Below, one piece after another: positions 9,112-22,926 of a stretch of 35,067 nucleotides of DNA. Source of the stretch: Actinomycetota bacterium (GTDB lineage Bacteria; Actinomycetota; AC-67); contig JAIVGO010000006.1 in NCBI GenBank assembly GCA_020201525.1, positions 1-35,067 on the forward strand, given 5' to 3'. Within the stretch, counting starts at the first letter, position 1. Every line of letters starts with the position of its first letter. The notes beneath the pieces are model-generated. The model was not told the DNA's origin and searched no databases. It saw only the letters and a program-made list of their open reading frames with translations. The position numbers and the translations under genes are program-made.

Positions 9112-11670
9112 TCAGGCCGACTCGTTGCGTGCCATTCGGGAGTTCCCAGCGTCTGTGATGATAGCGCTGAATGTGCGTGACGCGGCGTCCGCGTATTCGA
9201 ACTGACCGTCGATTTGGTGCGTCGCGCCGGCGGCCGCAATGTGGAGCTTCGACCCATTCCGGCTGAATGCCGGCACGGTCTCCTTGGTCGGAACCTTGAA
9301 CGCGAACCAGCCTGCGGCCGGGCCGTAAGCCCCCGCGCGGCACCCGCCGGGAACGGACGTGGCGCCGACTGTTCGAATGTCGAGTGAGACGCCGACGCAG
9401 TCGTTCGTCGCGGGATCGGCGTAGATACGATCGAAAACATATGTGACGAACGGCACGCTATACGTCTTCCCCAGCGTGTCCGTCGCTTTTGCGGTGAGAA
9501 CCCACGTGCTGCTCGTACCGGCGTCCAGCGGAGGACAGACCGGCGAAACGACCGCCGTTCGCACGTCCTGCCTGATCGTTCCTCCCAGCCAGCACTCGGG
9601 CACGCTCCACTTGGCGCCCAGCAAGGATCCGCCGGGCGGCGCGCTCAGCGTCAACGTGATCGGCGTCCCGGTGCCGCGCTGAACGACCGCCGACGTCACG
9701 CCGATAGTGATGGTGGTGTTGGGATCGACCGTGAACGGATAGATCTCAGAAGGCAATGAGCAATCGCACGTCGTCGGATCGACCGACAAGGTTATCGTGG
9801 TCGGACCGAGCGTCGGTGACACGGCGCACGAGAATGCGGCGATCCCGAGGCTGTTCGTCGCTCCCGATCCGACGCAGCCACCGTCTGCGATCATGCGTGC
9901 TCCGGCAAACAGGTTTCCGCCGGACGTCATTCGGACCCTCAGCGGAATCGACGCGCCGGGATAGGACCTTTCCGGCGGTCCCGTCAGCGTCACGAACGAT
10001 AGCGCGGCCGGCACGAGCGCAGCCGGAGCCGGCAGAGGATCGATGCCGCCGGCGAGCGTGTCGGACCACGTCTTCATGACGGCAACGGTCGGATCGGCCG
10101 GTGACACGCTGTAGCACCCAAAGTTCCGGTCAACTTGCGGCGTCCCGTTTGCGGTCGTCGATTGCACGGTTGGATCGTTGAAATCCCACAACAAGAAGCC
10201 CGAGCTTCGATGGTTGTCGTCGGTTTGCACTTTCAACATCTCGTTGAACATCGTGGCGCGCTGGTCGAGCGACGTTCCGGGACACGTCGTCGATGCAGGC
10301 GTCAATGACGGGACCGCTGCTGCGATGCCCGCTTCTCCGGTGAAAATCGGTTTGTTTTGCGTGACGACGGCTGAGTGAAAGAGAGGAGCGATTCCTTTCG
10401 CCCCGTCGGCGGCGGGAGCGGCAAAGCCGGCGCGGACCGACGCCTGGACGGAGAGTATCGCGGAGGCCGGCACGGGCGGCGTGAGGGTGACGTCGGTCAC
10501 ACCGGCCGGCACGAGCACCCGCATCGAACTGGCTCCACCGTGTGCGTAGGTCGCGGTTCGGGACAGTGTCACTCCGGGGCTGGCCGTGAAGCCGTCGGTA
10601 CCGGTTTCGAAGCCGTACGTGACCGGACCGGCCGCGGTCGCGACGGTGACGTCGTCGACATACAGCGGCCAGGCATTCGACGATGGCGCGGAGACCACGA
10701 GCTCCCAATTGGTTTGCGGTGCCGGTGTCCCAGAGCTCGCATCCGCCCACGCGTCAATCGGGACCACAACTGCGGGCGTCAACGACGACGTCGATGCGGT
10801 GATTTGCCGATACCGAACGGTCACGGACGAATCGAGGGGCGTTCCCTGCAAGGGCTCGCCGCTGTAATCGTGCACCTCGGTGAGATCGGTGCAGCCACTC
10901 GGAGACGACGATGAGCAGTCGAGAAGCTGTTTGTACTGCTGCGTCGTGAAGGTCGCTTGCGGGGTCCCGAGGTTCACGAGGTGATACGCATCTCCGGCAT
11001 CGACGCGGATTGCGTCACCCATATCGCGGGCGAAATCGACGAGTGCCGTCGGATCGGAAGCGCCGGCGTTGTTGTACAGCGGTTCGTTCATGAGCTGCCA
11101 GAAGGCAATCGTTGGGTTGTCTCGGTAGCGCGCCACCGTTTGCACGACGTAACTTCGATAGTCCGTTCCCCACACGTCGGTCTGTCTGTATCCGGGCGTG
11201 CACGGCGCCGGCGTCGGACAGTGGAACCACGACGCCCCCTTCGCCGGTATGCCACATAGGCGCTCCTGTCCTGCGAACACCGGGATCAGGCGGACGTTGT
11301 ATTTCTGTGCGTAGAACAGGAGCTTGTCGGTGCTACTCCAGTCACGACCGCCGGCCGTGTATTGCTCGAGGAATCCAAAAGTGCGCACGGCCGTTGCATG
11401 CATCTGCGTAGACAGCACTCGGAATGTCGTGTCGAAGTACGTGTCAAGGTTCGGATGCTGGTAATAGCAGCCGGTCAAGTCGTTGGCGAGTGCTTTCGAT
11501 GTGTCCATGTCCCAGAAGTTCACGCCGATCGCACGCCAGGGCTTTCCATCGACGGTAAGCCCGGAGCCCGATGCCGTCACGAAGCCGGCGGGGGCCGTGG
11601 TCCCACGGGAAGGCGAAGGCATCGCGCCCAGAAGAAGCGCGAGCGCGCACAGAACACCGAGCCTCCGCAT
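9112..11670 (-). CDS. Secreted GH5-like glycoside hydrolase with Ig-like tail
   Basis: Exported 852-residue protein with a clear signal peptide (MRRLGVLCALALLLGA). The first part (about 29-275) has the layout of a cellulase/mannanase-type (GH5, clan A) barrel: TVDGKPWRAIGVNFW near the N-terminus and acid/base Glu196 in FWQLMNEP. The nucleophile candidate Glu446 in PIFTGEAG lies about 250 residues later because a beta-rich domain (about 276-425) is inserted; it contains YVDDVTV and FETGTDGF, motifs typical of carbohydrate-binding jelly rolls. The barrel seems to end near residue 545 (LLWDFNDP). The remaining 300 residues are beta-rich, Ig-like, with paired cysteines. GGAGG at 11684-11680 sits nine bases before the ATG. 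It probably hydrolyses a plant or microbial beta-glycan; the substrate is unknown. Confidence 0.82.
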   Translation of the reverse strand: MRRLGVLCALALLLGAMPSPSRGTTAPAGFVTASGSGLTVDGKPWRAIGVNFWDMDTSKALANDLTGCYYQHPNLDTYFDTTFRVLSTQMHATAVRTFGFLEQYTAGGRDWSSTDKLLFYAQKYNVRLIPVFAGQERLCGIPAKGASWFHCPTPAPCTPGYRQTDVWGTDYRSYVVQTVARYRDNPTIAFWQLMNEPLYNNAGASDPTALVDFARDMGDAIRVDAGDAYHLVNLGTPQATFTTQQYKQLLDCSSSSPSGCTDLTEVHDYSGEPLQGTPLDSSVTVRYRQITASTSSLTPAVVVPIDAWADASSGTPAPQTNWELVVSAPSSNAWPLYVDDVTVATAAGPVTYGFETGTDGFTASPGVTLSRTATYAHGGASSMRVLVPAGVTDVTLTPPVPASAILSVQASVRAGFAAPAADGAKGIAPLFHSAVVTQNKPIFTGEAGIAAAVPSLTPASTTCPGTSLDQRATMFNEMLKVQTDDNHRSSGFLLWDFNDPTVQSTTANGTPQVDRNFGCYSVSPADPTVAVMKTWSDTLAGGIDPLPAPAALVPAALSFVTLTGPPERSYPGASIPLRVRMTSGGNLFAGARMIADGGCVGSGATNSLGIAAFSCAVSPTLGPTTITLSVDPTTCDCSLPSEIYPFTVDPNTTITIGVTSAVVQRGTGTPITLTLSAPPGGSLLGAKWSVPECWLGGTIRQDVRTAVVSPVCPPLDAGTSSTWVLTAKATDTLGKTYSVPFVTYVFDRIYADPATNDCVGVSLDIRTVGATSVPGGCRAGAYGPAAGWFAFKVPTKETVPAFSRNGSKLHIAAAGATHQIDGQFEYADAASRTFSAIITDAGNSRMARNESA

Positions 11671-14673: not shown

Positions 14674-15038
14674 ATGGCTGCTGAACGTGAGGATTCGAGC
14701 CGCGACCTGACGATACAGGTCGGCCACGTCGGCGATCTCCAGACCGTGAGGTGCTCCGGCGAATTCGACATGATCGGAGCAGAGTACTTCCGGCGCCGCA
14801 TCGAGCACGCCGTAGAGTTGACGCCGAGGAAGCTTCACGTCGACTGCTCGGACGTATCGTTCATAGATTCGATGGGCGTGCGCGCGATTCTGTATTGCGC
14901 CCGGCTGTGCCGGACGGCCGGAATTCGGTTGAGCTCACGCTCGGCGAACGGGTGGCAAGGCTTTTCGGAACGCTGGGTCTCACCGGCGAAGCAATCGGCG
15001 CCGTCATCACGAATCGATCACGCTGGATCCGTCGCTGA
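14674..15038 (+). pseudogene. STAS-domain anti-anti-sigma factor, frameshifted
   Basis: Residues 11-85 form a STAS domain of the SpoIIAA type, which binds an anti-sigma kinase and is controlled by phosphorylation of a serine, here Ser66 in VSFIDSMGVRAI. After GIRL (about base 14931) this frame turns into low-complexity sequence, while the missing C-terminal part (ELTLGERVARLFGTLGL and on to WIRR) continues in the next frame to the TGA at 15036-15038. Adding one base, for example a second G so that TTGAG becomes TTGGAG, joins the parts into a normal protein of about 121 residues. So the gene is either a recent pseudogene or carries a sequencing error. Its 3' end overlaps the convergent gene 15018-15503 by 21 bases. 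No kinase or sigma partner adjoins it. Confidence 0.8.
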
Positions 15039-15503
15039 CCGAGACCGACGGAGCGCCGCCTTGGCGTCATCCAGGGTGACGCGTTGCTTCCGGAAATTTG
15101 TCAGCGCGAACCGGTCGCACGCGGTTTCCGCCTGCGCTTTCCTGCCGAGCATCTCCTTCAGATACCAGTGATACCACTCGTGACACCAGAGAAAGCGGAC
15201 AACCTCGCGGCGCGTACGAAAAGTCAGGCCCTCCGACAGCCAAACGAACCGCATGCCTTTTGCTGCAATGCGGCGAGCACCATACTGGACGATCTCGCCG
15301 AACGGGAGGAACGGCTCGGGAACTTGGATCGTAATCCTCTTGTCTTCGAATTCGGTGTACGCAGCGAGGTGGGGGCGTGATCGGTAGCGAAGCGGCTTCA
15401 CGAATACCGTGTAGCCGGTGGCCTCGGGCAATCCTTCGAGATACTCGAGGATGAACGGCACGGGAAGCTCGGGTACCGATGAGTAGACATCCACGATCCG
15501 CAC
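15018..15503 (-). CDS. Putative zinc metalloprotease-like protein (HEWYH)
   Basis: A 161-residue soluble protein with no signal peptide. It contains HExxH as FLWCHEWYHWYL (His108, Glu109, His112) followed 14 residues on by AETACDRFAL (Glu126, Asp130). That order, HExxH then E-x(3)-D-x-FA, is the general shape of gluzincin/IrrE-like zinc peptidases, with Glu126 or Asp130 as the likely third ligand. The family itself I do not recognise. The GTG at 15503 is the only start after the in-frame TAG that ends the preceding gene, so the gene follows the pseudo-subtilase by 39 bases and is probably co-transcribed with it. Substrate unknown; action on the exported neighbour is unlikely because this protein appears cytoplasmic. 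Confidence 0.72.
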   Translation of the reverse strand: MRIVDVYSSVPELPVPFILEYLEGLPEATGYTVFVKPLRYRSRPHLAAYTEFEDKRITIQVPEPFLPFGEIVQYGARRIAAKGMRFVWLSEGLTFRTRREVVRFLWCHEWYHWYLKEMLGRKAQAETACDRFALTNFRKQRVTLDDAKAALRRSRSATDPA

Positions 15504-15542: not shown

Positions 15543-18500
15543 CTACACCAGGTCGCAGATGAACTCGCTGCGGTCGCTCGACGCGCCGGTCGCGAAAATG
15601 GGTCGCGGTTGCGGAGCACCGGGGGCCTTCGGCGGCCCCGCCGGAATCATCGACTTCGCTTGGGCGGCGATGTCCGCACCGGAATCGGCGAACGTGTACG
15701 GGATGTACGGCGCAACTCGAACGCCGCCGAGCTCGTGTGGGAGCATCGTGGAGTCTCGCCCACGCACGTTGTCCACGATTTCGAAGTGAAGCGCTCCCGG
15801 GTGCAACTTCAAGAACGTCAGCGGCACCGCGAGCTGCTCCCAGAAGCGGCCGTTCGTGCGGAGCTCTTTGCTCGTCGCGCCGGTTGTTCCCGGCAGCAGG
15901 CGAACCAGGGAGCTGCTGAAGACGCTCGTTCCGCGCTGCGGATCGAAGAATTCCCCGCCGGTTGCGACCAAATCATCGTTTAAATCGGCGCCTTGCCGGC
16001 GCACGCTCACCATCGACGCGTCGGAGCCGGGCGAGTGCACCATGACTTGCCAGTCTTCGCACTCGTCATAGGAGTATCCGCCGACCGACTTGGAACGGCA
16101 TTCGGGGTGATTCATTTGCCAGCTGACGTTCGGCGACACATCGAACGCATGTCCCATGCCGGCTGCGTTCATCGTTGCCGGCCATAGTGATGTCGTCCAC
16201 GTCGACACGCGCAGCGAAACGTCTTTGAGATCGACATGGGAAGGCGCCGTCCCGTCGCGAGCGATCGTCTGTCCGGGGATGAACAGGAACGTGAGGGTTC
16301 CTTGCCCAAGGCCGTGTGTGTGCAGCGCGAAGTCGAAGCCTCCGTTGCCCGTCCGTCCGCCCTTCACGATCTTGACATCGGGTATCGTTTTCTCACCGCC
16401 GCCGTATGTGTGCGTCGCGATGACGTCGCCGTCCCCGATGATCGCGTATCCAACCTCGGGGCCGATCTGAACCAGGATCGCTACCGCTGCAAGGTTGACG
16501 TCGTACGTGAAGTTCACGGATAGATGAGCGGTGTAGCTTGGCTGCGTCAGTGAGAATGGATACTGCGCCACCCCGACCGGGGCAATGAGGTCGGTACCGG
16601 CGAGATGCACCGTCGGGTTGTATCGCGCGGAGATCTCGCTGCTCGCCAAGCTCGACGGGGCGGGGGCGTTGACTCCTTCGTATAGCCATCCGTCGTGCGC
16701 AAGCGGATACAACGTCTTGATGAGCCCGGCGGGGTCGGGTGCCGATGCGAGTGTTCCGGGAAGCCTCGATTCGAGGAACCGGAGATCGCTCCGATCGATC
16801 AAGTCGACGTAGCGCGACGTCACCGCCGGCCCCGGCATCTTCTTCATCCAGTTGAGGACGACACGAATCTCCACACCGCCGACGGTAATAATGTAGGCGC
16901 CGGTCGGCTTTTCCAGCGCAACGTTCTCTGGTCCAAAAGTCTTCTTGAGATCGTCGGCGGTCAGGTTGACCGCGCTCAGCAGAAAGGCCGGCACATCCTG
17001 GTACGAGGGGTTGTCGCCGATGTCGTCCTTCAGTGTGACCGTCTTACCTTGTGCGTCCTTCACGCCGTACGAAATCGGCGCGCCGTAATCGGAAAACTGC
17101 CGAATGCGGTAATAGGCCGGTGGAGCGTTCAGCAGAACTGCATCGCCGTCTGCTCCCGTGACTTGCTGGTAGAGCTGCGTATCGAAAGGATCCATCGGCA
17201 CGTGGCGAGGTATCTGGCTCATGACGGTGTCGCGCGCCGGAAGGTCCGGCAGAAGCGCGAAGGTGAGATTCTCCGCCGGCTCGTCGTGAATGTAGAACCC
17301 ATGCATCACGAGCTTGGACCCGTTGAGCAGGCACGTGGGAACGTGCTCGCGAACGCCGGGCGGCAGGCCGTCGGCCGACACAAATGGATTGATGTCGTTG
17401 CCCGTTCCCGGCAATGAAACGAGTGTATAGCCGCAGAATAGTCCGCCGTCGTAACGCTCTCCCAAGCCCGTGGAAATCACCACGCCGCCGTCGGTCGAGA
17501 TCGACACGTCGACGATGCTTCCCCCATCGCCGATTCCGTGAAAGTCGCCTTCGCCGTCGGGCCCAACCCCGGCGAAGTCGGTGAGCGTCGTTCGTGCACC
17601 CAGTGGGCGGGCTCCGGAAAAGACGATCGTCGACTTCCATGCCCCGGTTGCCGGTTCCGACCCGAGGTCTCCGGATGAAACCGGAACACCCGCGGCCAAG
17701 ACTTCCGCCGTGCGGAGCTGCCGGGTAAATACTCCCGCGCCCTGGCGCCACACGGGTACTCCGTCGATGGGTTTGGCGGCCAAGGTCAACGCGCCGCGGA
17801 GAATTTTCGCGTCGCGAATCCCGTTCGACGCCAAGACGGCGAGCTGTGTCGCGATGACGGCCGCGGCCGGCACCGTCGAGTCGACGCGCACAGCGTCTCC
17901 TCCGGCCGGTTTCGATCCGTCGGCAAAAACAGGAACGAGGGCATTGTTAATCGGCAGTTTTTGGTCGAGCGTCGAAGACTTCGGCAAAAGCCCGACGAGG
18001 TTGCCGGACGCAACGACGTCCGGCTTCGAATGCATGTCGATCGAGGGACCACTCGAGCTCGTTGTTGCGACGCTTCGTCCGTCGAAGGCTCCGACGGTGA
18101 TGACCTCCGGCAAATTCGCGATGCCGAAGATCGTTTGGAAGCCCGGACCGAGGTCGCCCGCGGGCACGACGACCGGCAGGCCTTTGCCGCTTAGCGCGGC
18201 GAGCTTCGCGCGGGTTCCCTGCCAGCGAAGCACGGCGGCGGCGTAGTAATCGGCCGCAACGCGCTGCGCCGTGGACGCATGCTTCATTTGGGTAGCGCGT
18301 TTCGCGGCGTCGAGTGCGATTCCGAACGCGCTTCCGCTTCCTTCGACGATGGAATTGTCGCCGATCGCCGCGAGAACGTTGCTCCACTGGCTGCTTCCGT
18401 CGCTCGCCGTTCGCGCCATGAGCAACGTCGTCGGGTCGAGTAGCTCCGCGGACGGAACGGCATCCAAAACAGCGTCGAAGTCACGCGCATGCGCCAGTGC

Positions 18501-18935
18501 GTACGCGAGAGCGGCGTCGTGGCGATCGGCGTCGAACTTCGAGCCGCCGTACGCCGAGTACGACGTGATCGATATCGAGCTTGTCAGCTGTAACAACGCC
18601 GTTGCGGCGTACGTGCCGTAGCCGGCGGAGTCCTCGGAGGAATCCGTCGCCCATACAAGCTTGGTGCGCAGTGATTCCGAAAAGACGGACGCGTCGATTC
18701 CCGAAGAGATCAGAAGGACGCGAAGTGGCTGAGCAACGGTGGGCCGAAGTGCGCTCAGGGAGGCGGCTTGTCTGCTGAGGACGGGCTTCACGCTGTCGGC
18801 GAGCGCCTCCGGCAAGCCGGTTGCGGTCGGAACGGGATCCGGCGCGGGTGTCGTCGTGTCGGCGGGTGCACGGACGGTGACGAGTGACACGGTGGTAAGT
18901 AAAAGCAAAGCGAAACGAAAACCCTTGCGGAACAT
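15543..18935 (-). CDS. Exported subtilisin-fold protein lacking catalytic residues
   Basis: A 1130-residue exported protein (signal MFRKGFRFALLLLTTVSLV; GGGGAGG five bases before ATG 18935). Residues about 70-390 follow the S8 subtilase plan block by block. The catalytic Asp block reads LLISSGID (74-81; normally DTGID), the His block GYGTY (105-109; normally GHGTH), the oxyanion Asn block VVVPAGDLG (255-263; normally AGN), the late block SSSGPSIDMHSKPDVVASG is well kept (293-311), and the Ser block reads DSTVPAAA (352-359; normally GTSMAAP). So Asp, His and Asn are replaced and the Ser position holds Thr354. The other roughly 740 residues are beta-rich with no family I recognise. It probably acts as a binding or scaffold protein at the cell surface. 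The alignment is by eye. Confidence 0.8.
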   Translation of the reverse strand: MFRKGFRFALLLLTTVSLVTVRAPADTTTPAPDPVPTATGLPEALADSVKPVLSRQAASLSALRPTVAQPLRVLLISSGIDASVFSESLRTKLVWATDSSEDSAGYGTYAATALLQLTSSISITSYSAYGGSKFDADRHDAALAYALAHARDFDAVLDAVPSAELLDPTTLLMARTASDGSSQWSNVLAAIGDNSIVEGSGSAFGIALDAAKRATQMKHASTAQRVAADYYAAAVLRWQGTRAKLAALSGKGLPVVVPAGDLGPGFQTIFGIANLPEVITVGAFDGRSVATTSSSGPSIDMHSKPDVVASGNLVGLLPKSSTLDQKLPINNALVPVFADGSKPAGGDAVRVDSTVPAAAVIATQLAVLASNGIRDAKILRGALTLAAKPIDGVPVWRQGAGVFTRQLRTAEVLAAGVPVSSGDLGSEPATGAWKSTIVFSGARPLGARTTLTDFAGVGPDGEGDFHGIGDGGSIVDVSISTDGGVVISTGLGERYDGGLFCGYTLVSLPGTGNDINPFVSADGLPPGVREHVPTCLLNGSKLVMHGFYIHDEPAENLTFALLPDLPARDTVMSQIPRHVPMDPFDTQLYQQVTGADGDAVLLNAPPAYYRIRQFSDYGAPISYGVKDAQGKTVTLKDDIGDNPSYQDVPAFLLSAVNLTADDLKKTFGPENVALEKPTGAYIITVGGVEIRVVLNWMKKMPGPAVTSRYVDLIDRSDLRFLESRLPGTLASAPDPAGLIKTLYPLAHDGWLYEGVNAPAPSSLASSEISARYNPTVHLAGTDLIAPVGVAQYPFSLTQPSYTAHLSVNFTYDVNLAAVAILVQIGPEVGYAIIGDGDVIATHTYGGGEKTIPDVKIVKGGRTGNGGFDFALHTHGLGQGTLTFLFIPGQTIARDGTAPSHVDLKDVSLRVSTWTTSLWPATMNAAGMGHAFDVSPNVSWQMNHPECRSKSVGGYSYDECEDWQVMVHSPGSDASMVSVRRQGADLNDDLVATGGEFFDPQRGTSVFSSSLVRLLPGTTGATSKELRTNGRFWEQLAVPLTFLKLHPGALHFEIVDNVRGRDSTMLPHELGGVRVAPYIPYTFADSGADIAAQAKSMIPAGPPKAPGAPQPRPIFATGASSDRSEFICDLV

Positions 18936-19146: not shown

Positions 19147-20526
19147 ATGCCGTTCGAGTTTCGTACGATCATCGAACCGTTCCGCATCAAGAGCGTCGAG
19201 CCGATTCGCTTCTCGTCGCCCGACGAACGCGAACAGGCGTTGCGTCGCACGGGGTACAACCTGTTCGGCCTGCGTTCGGAAGACGTGCTCATCGATTTGC
19301 TCACCGACTCGGGCACCGGCGCCATGTCGGCCGAGCAGTGGGCGGGCATGATGCGAGGCGACGAGAGCTACGCCGGCTCACGCTCGTTCTTTCGCTTCGA
19401 GAGGGCCGTTCGCGATCTCACCGGATTCCGCCACGTCATTCCGACCCACCAAGGGCGCGCGGCCGAACGGATCCTGTTCGGTGAAGCGGTCCGTCAGGGT
19501 GGTGTCGTGCCGAACAACACCCACTTCGACACGACTCGAGCAAACGTCGAGCATGACGGCGCAACCGCACTCGACTTGGTCATCGCCGAGGGCTTGCAGC
19601 CTTCGTTCGATCATCCCTTCAAGGGCAACATGGATGTTGGGCGCCTCGACGAGACACTGGCCGCGGAGCGCGATCGCGTCCCACTCGTCATGGTCACTGT
19701 GACGAACAATTCCGGCGGCGGGCAACCGGTCTCGATGGAAAATCTGCGCGCAGTCCGCGCGGTATGCGACCGCTACGACGTGCCGCTCTTTCTCGACGCA
19801 TGCCGCTTCGCGGAGAACGCATGGTTCATCAAGCAGCGTGAGCCCGGATTCGATGCGCGGTCGCCCGAGGAAATCGCCCGAGAGATGTTCTCTCTTGCCG
19901 ACGGCGCGACGTTCAGCGCGAAGAAGGACGGCTTGGCAAACATCGGCGGCTTCCTGGCGATGAACGACGACGATCTCGCCGCGCGGTGCCGTAACAACTT
20001 GATTCTGACGGAAGGGTTTCCGACGTACGGCGGCCTCGCCGGTTACGATCTCGAGGCGATTGCCGTCGGATTGCGCGAGGTCCTGGACGAAGATTATTTG
20101 CGCTACCGAATTCGCTCCGTCGAGTACCTATGGGAAAAGGTCGCTGCGGCAGGCGTGCCGTGTGTGTCTCCACCCGGAGGGCACGCCGTGTATGTGGATG
20201 CGAAGACGTTGTTGCCGCAGATCCCACCGTCGCAGTACCCGGCGCATGCGCTTGCCATCGAGCTTTTCCGCGCAGGCGGCATTCGGACGGTCGAAATCGG
20301 ATCCGTGATGTTCGGGCGCGTGCACGACGACGGCACGGAGGATCCAGCTGCGATGGAGCTTGTGCGCCTCGCGATTCCCCGGCGCGTGTACACACAAAGT
20401 CACATCGACTACGTCGCCGAGGTGATCGCTTCCATCGTGCCACGCGCCGCAGAGCTCCGTGGCTACGCGATCACATCTCAATCCAAATACTTGCGCCACT
20501 TCACGGCGCAGTTCGAACAGCTTTAG
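19147..20526 (+). CDS. tnaA: Tryptophanase (beta-eliminating lyase)
   Basis: PLP enzyme of 459 residues that splits tryptophan to indole, pyruvate and ammonia. It has the full family pattern: EPFRIKSVE (10-18), LDACRF (216-221), PLP lysine Lys260 in FSAKKDGLANIGGFL, and TEGFPTYGGLAG. Tryptophanase and tyrosine phenol-lyase are close homologues; two positions favour tryptophanase. The lyase arginine that binds the phenol ring is absent (VEIGS at 382-386, Ile384), and the C-terminal LRHFTA has the histidine (His451) typical of tryptophanase. ATG 19147 gives the normal family N-terminus; the frame is open further upstream but without family sequence. No permease or TnaC-like leader adjoins. It ends tail to tail with the next gene, sharing four bases. 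Confidence 0.9.
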   Translation: MPFEFRTIIEPFRIKSVEPIRFSSPDEREQALRRTGYNLFGLRSEDVLIDLLTDSGTGAMSAEQWAGMMRGDESYAGSRSFFRFERAVRDLTGFRHVIPTHQGRAAERILFGEAVRQGGVVPNNTHFDTTRANVEHDGATALDLVIAEGLQPSFDHPFKGNMDVGRLDETLAAERDRVPLVMVTVTNNSGGGQPVSMENLRAVRAVCDRYDVPLFLDACRFAENAWFIKQREPGFDARSPEEIAREMFSLADGATFSAKKDGLANIGGFLAMNDDDLAARCRNNLILTEGFPTYGGLAGYDLEAIAVGLREVLDEDYLRYRIRSVEYLWEKVAAAGVPCVSPPGGHAVYVDAKTLLPQIPPSQYPAHALAIELFRAGGIRTVEIGSVMFGRVHDDGTEDPAAMELVRLAIPRRVYTQSHIDYVAEVIASIVPRAAELRGYAITSQSKYLRHFTAQFEQL

Positions 20527-22754
20527 ACGACGAGCACCGTGACGGTTGCGTTTGTAGGTTCGACGTTCCCCTTGTAGTCGCGCGCGTAGGCGTGCGCCGT
20601 CCAGTACCCGGGCATCAGCGGGAGCGGCGCCGTCCACGAGCAGTCCGTCTTCGCTGCGTTGCACGACAAGGTCGCGCCGGTCGACTGAGAGCCGTTTGAG
20701 CCGGAAAACGCGACGTACACATTCGCGACGCCGGTCAAGTCATCGGTCGAGCGACCGGCGATGACTCCGGGGAATCCGAGGACGACCGATCCGTCGCCGG
20801 TCGTAAAGTGCGTGACCGGCGGAGTAGTGTCGACGAGGCCGGTGCCGGTGAGTGGGGCCGAATGCGGAGCGTTCGGTGCGGTATCGGTGAGCGTGATCGC
20901 CGCCGACCGCGCTCCGGCGGCAAGGGGCTGGAACCGCGCCGACACGGTGCACGACTGTGCAGGGAACAGCACGACTTGCGTGCACTCGTCTTGCATGAGC
21001 GTGAAGTCGGACGAGTTCGTGCCCGTGATGTGAACGCTCGTGACACCTAGTGCTGCACTGCCGGTGTTGCGGACGAAGACCGACACCGGCGCGGTCCCCG
21101 GCCCGCCGACGAGAAGCGAGCCGAACGACAATGACGACGGACTGAACGTGAGCGCCGGCGTGCCGCTCGTAGCCGGCGGAACGACTTTGCCCCACCACGT
21201 TCCCCATAGATTGCTCCCCGCCGCATATTCTTGGATCGTCCAAAGCGTTTTGTCGTCGCTCGGGTCGACCGCGGCTGCGCTGTAGTCCCCCCAACGGTTC
21301 TCGCTGCCGCTGAACGTCTTGTTGTACGGACCGGCGCCGCTTTTCAGCAGCGCGAGGCTCCGCATCGTGTTGAACGGATCACTCGATGACCGGAACGAAT
21401 ACGCCGCGCTCGGATACGTCCCGGCCGAGAATCGCGAGTAGCCGACGAGCACATCGTTGCTCGAGCTCACCGCGATGCTCGGATATGCGTAAAAATATGT
21501 GCCGCTCGAATCGTCGATGCGACCGAGCTGTTGAACGTCCCCATGCGTTCCGATTTGCCACCACTGCACCGAAGATCGCGCCGGCGACGACGACGCCGGC
21601 AAAAAGATCGTTTGGGCGGCGAACAAGGAGCCGTTGCGATACACCACGCTTTGCATGCGGCCATCCCCAACAGAAATCTTCGCGGATGAGCCGCTTTGCG
21701 GCGCGATTTCGGATGAGCCTGGCAATGTGTCCCACCACGTGCTCGTTGTCGAGGGGTTTGCGTAGCCCGGGGCGTACGTCTCGTCGCCTACCGGGCCGCT
21801 GATGCTGCTCAGGCGAAGCACGCCGCGACCGCCGTTGTCGCCGGCGAAGTTTTCGAGCAAGTAGACCGCCCGCAGTGACGAGTCGTACGTCAAAGCGGGT
21901 ATCTGCGTGAGCCCTTGGTCATCGTGGAACAACGAATACGAGCCACCGGCGCCGCTGTAGAGGTTGTTCTTGTTGAAGGCCCAGATGTTTGATCCCAGAA
22001 AGCTGTCGCCGGCGCTAACCAAGTTCGCCGTGACGACGATCCAGTCGTGCGAAAAGCCAAGCGCCGGGTAGTCGGCCCACGAAGTGCCGCTGGAGTCGGC
22101 AAGGTACCGGTAGACGTTCCACGTGCCTTTGGCATCGGTAGTCGTTGAAACGGCGACGAGGATTCTCGATGCGCTGGTGTCCTCTCCCGACGCCGCCGAT
22201 ATCATCCAGCGCCGGTTTTCGGGGTCGTACGCAAGGCGCGGATCGAATGCGTCGGAGACGCCGAAGAACGAATTGAGCGTGACCGTCTTCAACGTCGTTC
22301 CGGCTTTGTCTTGAACCCGAATTTGGGAGTTCAATGCGGTTACCACTTGCGTCGGGCCGACTGCACCGTTCGTGTCCGGGGGGATGACGTGGCTGTCGTC
22401 GCCAAGCGCCGCGAAACCCGTCGCGGACGGCGATGGCGTGGAAGCGGTTCGCTGCGGGCCTCTGATGTCGTAGGAACTCTTGGTGCGTGGAGCGCGCCGC
22501 GCCGGCAAGATGCGCGTGGGCACCGGCTTGGCGTGTTCAACGAGCGATGCCTTGCCGGCCGGCGGTGTGTAGAGGTCGAAGGCCTCTACATGGGCGTCCG
22601 GGAGGCCGTTGAGGTCAACGAGCACGTGCTCGTCTGCGACGCGCTGAGATCGGATTTGTGAGGTGACGCCGGCACCGCCGGTGAGTGCGCTGAGCAGCGT
22701 CAGGATGGCCGCAATTGCAGGGGGAACTATACGACACGAACCAAGCCCTCTCAC
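20523..22754 (-). CDS. Exported beta-propeller-like protein with SPD-2/choice-of-anchor-D domain
   Basis: A large exported protein of about 743 residues. The signal region reads VRGLGSCRIVPPAIAAILTL. Residues about 110-500 are Trp/Ser/Gly-rich repeats (DTNGAVGPTQVV, YDPENRRWMISA, ALGFSHDWIVVTAN, GYSRFSAGTY) that resemble a beta-propeller of exported sugar- or surface-binding proteins. Residues about 520-630 (FSPSSLSFGSLLVG, VRNTGSAALGVTSV, SCTVSARFQPLAAG, LTGTG) match the ASPM-SPD-2-Hydin or choice-of-anchor D type of Ig-like domain. A last beta sandwich with DTTPPVTHF follows. I prefer GTG 22754, with GGGGG eight bases upstream, over GTG 22775, which has a purine run directly against it. No enzymatic motif is visible. 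Its stop overlaps the tnaA stop. Confidence 0.75.
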   Translation of the reverse strand: MRGLGSCRIVPPAIAAILTLLSALTGGAGVTSQIRSQRVADEHVLVDLNGLPDAHVEAFDLYTPPAGKASLVEHAKPVPTRILPARRAPRTKSSYDIRGPQRTASTPSPSATGFAALGDDSHVIPPDTNGAVGPTQVVTALNSQIRVQDKAGTTLKTVTLNSFFGVSDAFDPRLAYDPENRRWMISAASGEDTSASRILVAVSTTTDAKGTWNVYRYLADSSGTSWADYPALGFSHDWIVVTANLVSAGDSFLGSNIWAFNKNNLYSGAGGSYSLFHDDQGLTQIPALTYDSSLRAVYLLENFAGDNGGRGVLRLSSISGPVGDETYAPGYANPSTTSTWWDTLPGSSEIAPQSGSSAKISVGDGRMQSVVYRNGSLFAAQTIFLPASSSPARSSVQWWQIGTHGDVQQLGRIDDSSGTYFYAYPSIAVSSSNDVLVGYSRFSAGTYPSAAYSFRSSSDPFNTMRSLALLKSGAGPYNKTFSGSENRWGDYSAAAVDPSDDKTLWTIQEYAAGSNLWGTWWGKVVPPATSGTPALTFSPSSLSFGSLLVGGPGTAPVSVFVRNTGSAALGVTSVHITGTNSSDFTLMQDECTQVVLFPAQSCTVSARFQPLAAGARSAAITLTDTAPNAPHSAPLTGTGLVDTTPPVTHFTTGDGSVVLGFPGVIAGRSTDDLTGVANVYVAFSGSNGSQSTGATLSCNAAKTDCSWTAPLPLMPGYWTAHAYARDYKGNVEPTNATVTVLVV

Positions 22755-22926
22755 CAGGTATACCCCCGACGGCACCCTCGATAGTGAATTCGTTGCAGAC
22801 CGGCGCTTCCCTGCTCTCGCCGGGCGGTGTTCCCGCCACGCATCGTGCGTGAGCAGCGGTTATGCCGGAAAAAAAGAAACCGGTAGGGCGACTTTTCATC
22901 CGGGGTAGGCTCGCGAGGGCCGCTGG

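Follow-up and report, generated by a model that had tools for sequence, protein, structure and literature searches.

Does this locus encode an exported protein of subtilisin type that has been maintained after the loss of its catalytic residues and, if so, what might such a protein do? The window, by which we mean the whole stretch of 35,067 nucleotides that was analysed (contig JAIVGO010000006.1 of an Actinomycetota bacterium), contains an open reading frame at 15543-18935 in which the sequence-only reading had recognized such a gene. Its intact frame of 1130 codons stood, but the strand had to be corrected: the frame lies on the minus strand and runs from 18935 to 15546, with the ATG at 18935-18933 and the stop codon at 15543-15545. 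A plus-strand reading of the same interval was rejected because it contains many stops. The strong ribosome-binding site that had been claimed is present 5 nt before the ATG. Judged by eye, the N-terminus looks like a typical Sec signal peptide, with basic residues followed by hydrophobic ones, and the homologues begin in a similar signal-like manner, which supports the proposed export. On the evidence below, the gene very probably encodes a secreted, non-catalytic pseudo-S8 protein of a small, lineage-restricted family.

15543..18935, minus strand: pseudo-subtilase gene including the stop codon, 1130 aa
18941..18947, minus strand: Shine-Dalgarno sequence GGGGAGG (18947-18941 in reading direction)
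18858..18935, minus strand: putative signal peptide, residues 1 to about 26 (MFRKGFRFALLLLTTVSLVTVRAPAD)
17721..18734, minus strand: degenerate subtilase (S8) domain, residues 68-405, delimited by Pfam, joint alignment, hhalign and HMM

By sequence comparison, residues ~68-405 are of subtilase ancestry, with a likeness beyond chance. The blocks listed in the sequence-only reading occur in subtilase order: LLISSGID (74-81), GYGTY (105-109), VVVPAGDLG (255-263), SSSGPSIDMHSKPDVVASG (293-311) and DSTVPAAA (352-359). Pfam PF00082 matches the protein with 26.5 bits against a curated cut-off of 21.8, over residues 251-370 when counted from the ATG (279-398 if numbered from an upstream TTG), and an HMM of 10 intact subtilases assigns it 36.0 bits vs a maximum of 11.7 in 1000 shuffles. 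With phmmer, subtilisin-like proteases of known structure are matched at 8e-8. A profile of the family (this protein and the four relatives described below) matches solved subtilases with E=1.5e-9. A second profile was built from seven intact-triad subtilases, of which four belong to this genome and three come from relatives; hhalign aligned the five-member profile to it with a probability of 98.6% (E=1.1e-15). The alignment spans 258 columns, beginning at the strand that precedes the Asp site and reaching the domain's end, and it pairs every catalytic column. Taken together, the Pfam score, the profile alignment and the shuffle control bear out a subtilase-derived domain, and residues ~68-405 would be expected still to fold as a subtilase-like alpha/beta core. 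A single-sequence AlphaFold model of residues 60-420 had a pLDDT of 38, too low for a fold search.

The homology with S8 enzymes is most readily seen against three intact subtilases of the same genome (L014, L016 and L018), with which the domain shares, over ~258 columns, the near-identical local motifs VVVPAG, SSRGPT..KPDVVAPG and SLR.P.S.ID. These three enzymes themselves carry long C-terminal tryptophan repeats (SSSWSSSSW, TWSGSTWSG, ARSWDAREW). The same genome also contains a divergent S8 protein with weak FG-GAP matches (L020, G000:C105, minus-strand ORF 1-2829), in which Asp and His are present, there is no clear oxyanion Asn and the Ser site apparently reads GAT; it is possibly a second, unrelated pseudo-subtilase.

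Four relatives of the window protein were found. Two come from another class: G010, with 42% identity over residues 15-1081 and thus nearly full length, and G024, from the same family as G010, with 42% identity over residues 22-363, where only the N-terminal part is available because the contig ends there. The other two are paralogs in the window genome, C59 (32% identity) and C46 (33%), the latter frameshifted by mutation or assembly error. In a tree, the five members fall on a single branch with 100/100 support, apart from 10 intact subtilases. Of 397 genomes sampled from the phylum, 3 contain the family; sampling was carried out three times at n=400 and apparently yielded the same 397 genomes each time. 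No further homologues came from two scans of genome contigs, a scan of viral sequences or a tblastn against plasmids.

The catalytic positions were located by alignment of this family with intact enzymes.

18705..18707, minus strand: catalytic Asp site, Ser77 (window, G010, G024, C59, C46: S, G, S, S, G), from joint and profile alignments
18618..18620, minus strand: catalytic His site, Tyr106 (same order: Y, Y, L, Y, Y), from joint and profile alignments
18153..18155, minus strand: oxyanion Asn site, Asp261 (Asp in 5/5 members), from the family alignment
17871..17876, minus strand: catalytic Ser site, Val355 (preferred register) or Thr354, from hhalign, joint MAFFT and HMM

Replacement of Asp by Ser77, of His by Tyr106 and of the oxyanion Asn by Asp261, as first proposed, is upheld by the joint and profile alignments. 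VLLISSGID aligns on VALIDTGVA, which puts Ser77 at the catalytic Asp; EDSAGYGTYAA aligns on TDGYGHGTFEA, placing Tyr106 at the His; and VVVPAGDLG aligns on VVVPAGNGG, placing Asp261 at the oxyanion Asn. None of the five members has Asp at the first site or His at the second. At the fourth site, the loss of Ser was confirmed but the residue named, Thr354, was not: hhalign, joint MAFFT and the HMM all make Val355 more likely, with Thr354 then corresponding to Thr220 of the GTS motif, and neither residue is Ser. This register may be off by one residue, since HMMER preferred the other one for G010. In the family, column 354 reads T, S, S, T, S and column 355 reads V, L, L, L, I, so that G010 and G024 would retain Ser if Thr354 marks the correct register. 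C46 may also keep its Ser, since the second Ser of its GSSIS falls on the catalytic Ser when this paralog is aligned alone with intact enzymes. Because Asp and His are missing in all members, the Asp-His-Ser mechanism is unusable in any case. An intact triad at other residues was not found, and no His and no Glu is invariant across the five members in residues 60-410. The substitutions are thus shared by homologues: loss of Asp and His together with an oxyanion Asp recurs in four other genes, two of them in another class, which is stronger evidence than was available from the window gene at first reading.

The changes extend beyond single residues to the cleft itself.

18201..18458, minus strand: family insert (62-74 extra residues) replacing the S1-pocket wall SLG, region ~160-245, from the spacing comparison
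18036..18185, minus strand: former oxyanion loop and following strand, residues 251-300, the most conserved block by identity to relatives

Between the His site and the strand that follows it, 5/5 family members have 17 residues and seven intact enzymes 27-36, which indicates that the loop with the calcium-site/GVAP segment has been shortened by a deletion of 11-19 residues. Conversely, 92-104 aa separate the oxyanion strand from the strand preceding the S1-wall SLG in the five members, vs 29-30 in the seven intact enzymes, consistent with replacement of the S1 wall by an insert of ~62-74 residues. Both the deletion and the insert are common to all five members. Residues 251-300 are 68-76% identical to G010 and G024, compared to ~40% overall; this block is well conserved in intact subtilases too and may therefore belong to the core of the fold instead of forming a binding face. 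The protein further differs from intact S8 enzymes in its tail and in the lack of an I9-sized propeptide. Only ~40 residues separate the signal peptide from the subtilase domain, too few for a propeptide of the I9 type, and Pfam detected no I9 propeptide in the window protein, a weak control given that Pfam scored above cut-off in only 1 of 6 intact proteins scanned, an intact paralog.

Downstream of the domain, the protein continues into a long C-terminal region.

15546..17720, minus strand: C-terminal region, residues 406-1130, with two conserved Cys pairs (501/535 and 946/959)
17040..17213, minus strand: possible Cna-B/transthyretin-like beta motif aDGdAvllNaPPaYYriRqF, residues 575-632, seen by eye and without a significant PDB match

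This tail has no match in Pfam, NCBIfam or PDB. In the genomes sampled, the ~725-residue region occurs only alongside the pseudo-subtilase domain: the window gene, G010 and both paralogs carry it, and it is the same tail in all three full-length members of the family. The four Cys residues are found at matching places in G010, which suggests two disulphides. In the C59 paralog, the C-terminus has a hydrophobic stretch followed by a run of Arg, suggestive, from its composition, of membrane attachment. The same paralog (L007) has a His-rich tail insertion, GGHHHDHNGCIHIH, at about residue 690 of its protein P0004; the insertion is absent from other members and is a possible metal-binding loop.

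Pseudo-subtilases have been described from few bacteria, and the literature searched yielded only CspC and CspA of Clostridioides difficile. In these, subtilases have turned into receptors that act by binding and heterodimerization; the Csp proteins, which sense germinants, reside in spores and still have their prodomain as well as a jelly-roll insert, and CspC keeps its Asp (D105, T170, G485) (PMC6636752, PMC12880746). Like the family described here, they are bacterial subtilases that lost catalytic residues. In contrast, Asp, His and Asn are all changed in the window protein, which is exported. Membership of the Csp group was rejected on the weak scores of the CspC and CspBA models (16.1 bits vs a cut-off of 1250 and 12.5 vs 675). 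In Plasmodium, the secreted pseudoenzyme PIMMS2 is likewise subtilisin-like; loss of its triad is variable and its C-terminus is extended, and the P. berghei protein has kept D, H, S and N and lost the HGT and GTS motifs (PMC5520436). The window protein resembles PIMMS2 in being a secreted subtilisin-like pseudoenzyme with such an extension, but PIMMS2 is eukaryotic, and no specific sequence relation between the two emerged.

The Csp precedent shows subtilases converted to receptors that work by binding; by analogy, surface binding or sensing would be a plausible function for the pseudo-subtilase. The conserved face of residues 251-300 may be where the domain binds a ligand, whether a protein, a peptide or part of the cell wall, and the tail probably consists of disulphide-stabilized beta domains that hold the protein outside the cell and supply or support binding. 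The sequence-only reading had offered a surface binding protein or a protease decoy; with the S1 wall replaced and no I9-sized propeptide, a decoy presenting a subtilisin-like substrate cleft appears the less likely of the two. We tentatively propose that these exported pseudo-subtilases form an undescribed family whose one-time active-site face (block 251-300 with the invariant Asp261, and the S1-wall insert) possibly serves in ligand binding or sensing, coupled to a new extracellular region of ~725 residues. This would be a second bacterial lineage, independent of CspC/CspA, to have made a receptor from a subtilisin.

One alternative is that the dead core has no ligand of its own and is a rigid N-terminal folding or spacing module, leaving the tail to do the work, such as binding of carbohydrate or protein at the surface. 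This fits a tail that is twice the size of the domain, has paired Cys and is present in every full-length member. It fits less well with a domain whose conservation equals or exceeds that of the tail (window vs G010, 0.43 and 0.39; window vs C59, 0.41 and 0.31) and with a conservation peak at the old oxyanion loop, and we consider it somewhat doubtful.

That the protein has remained an enzyme by rebuilding its active site, employing, e.g., the invariant Asp261 together with Thr354 or a Ser at the nucleophile position, is very improbable. The residues that make the idea attractive are an Asp conserved in 5/5 members and a Thr or Ser always present at column 354, and sedolisins (S53), like this family, have an Asp at the oxyanion position. 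However, sedolisins need Ser-Glu-Asp; the lack of an invariant Glu in residues 60-410, and of an S53 match in Pfam, led us to reject this assignment. The lack of an invariant His over the same residues, the replaced S1 wall and the missing I9-sized propeptide speak against any rebuilt enzyme.

Finally, the notion of a former protease losing its function in a frame open by chance, for which the frameshifted C46 paralog might be cited (if not an assembly error), is scarcely credible given four other members without the same residues, 42% identity and shared indels across two classes, an intact frame of 1130 codons and pN below pS. The last point holds for every family pair (pN/pS 0.55-0.84), in a test that is weak because pS is near saturation. 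The shared indels and the losses recurring across two classes make decay of the window copy untenable and, with the intact frame and pN/pS, favour the maintained pseudo-enzyme of the first reading over a decaying gene.

A separate family of pseudo-subtilases, changed at every catalytic position, with a cleft remodelled by two shared indels and too little space for an I9 propeptide, would provide a second natural experiment in the conversion of a protease to a binding protein. It would also allow the parts of the subtilase fold needed for stability to be told apart from those needed for catalysis. The family is, however, rare.

The surroundings of these genes vary. The window gene is flanked by a tryptophanase-like gene on one side and by a small gene encoding an HEWYH motif on the other. 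In G010 the order is dapA-ftsK-pseudo-subtilase-rodZ (dapA named by eye), and the G024 gene is near ftsK. The ftsK/rodZ setting was not seen for the window copy, C59 or C46, and in G038 other genes occupy the place. Since neighbours are not conserved between lineages, no operon argument can be made. The ftsK-rodZ stretch differs among three genomes of family f7 (L025, 11350-13922 and 6446-7639; L042, 4396-11897), with several genes apparently exported: it holds the pseudo-subtilase in G010, an S15 hydrolase and the pseudo-subtilase by ftsK in G024, and an FG-GAP-like and a metallo-beta-lactamase-like protein in G038. In G001 and G002, ftsK and rodZ are adjacent.

Three further genes in the window, all on the minus strand, deserve mention. 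The HEWYH gene (15018-15503), directly downstream and on the same strand, encodes 161 aa from a GTG start, with the motif HEWYH...E.ACDRFAL; its product resembles a small zinc metallopeptidase and has no Pfam or NCBIfam match. The gene at 20523-22775 encodes a large protein that looks exported and contains a choice-of-anchor-D domain (NCBIfam, 65.1 bits). The product of 9112-11670 has 852 aa and gives a weak match to cellulase (GH5), with 25.9 bits vs a cut-off of 23.5.
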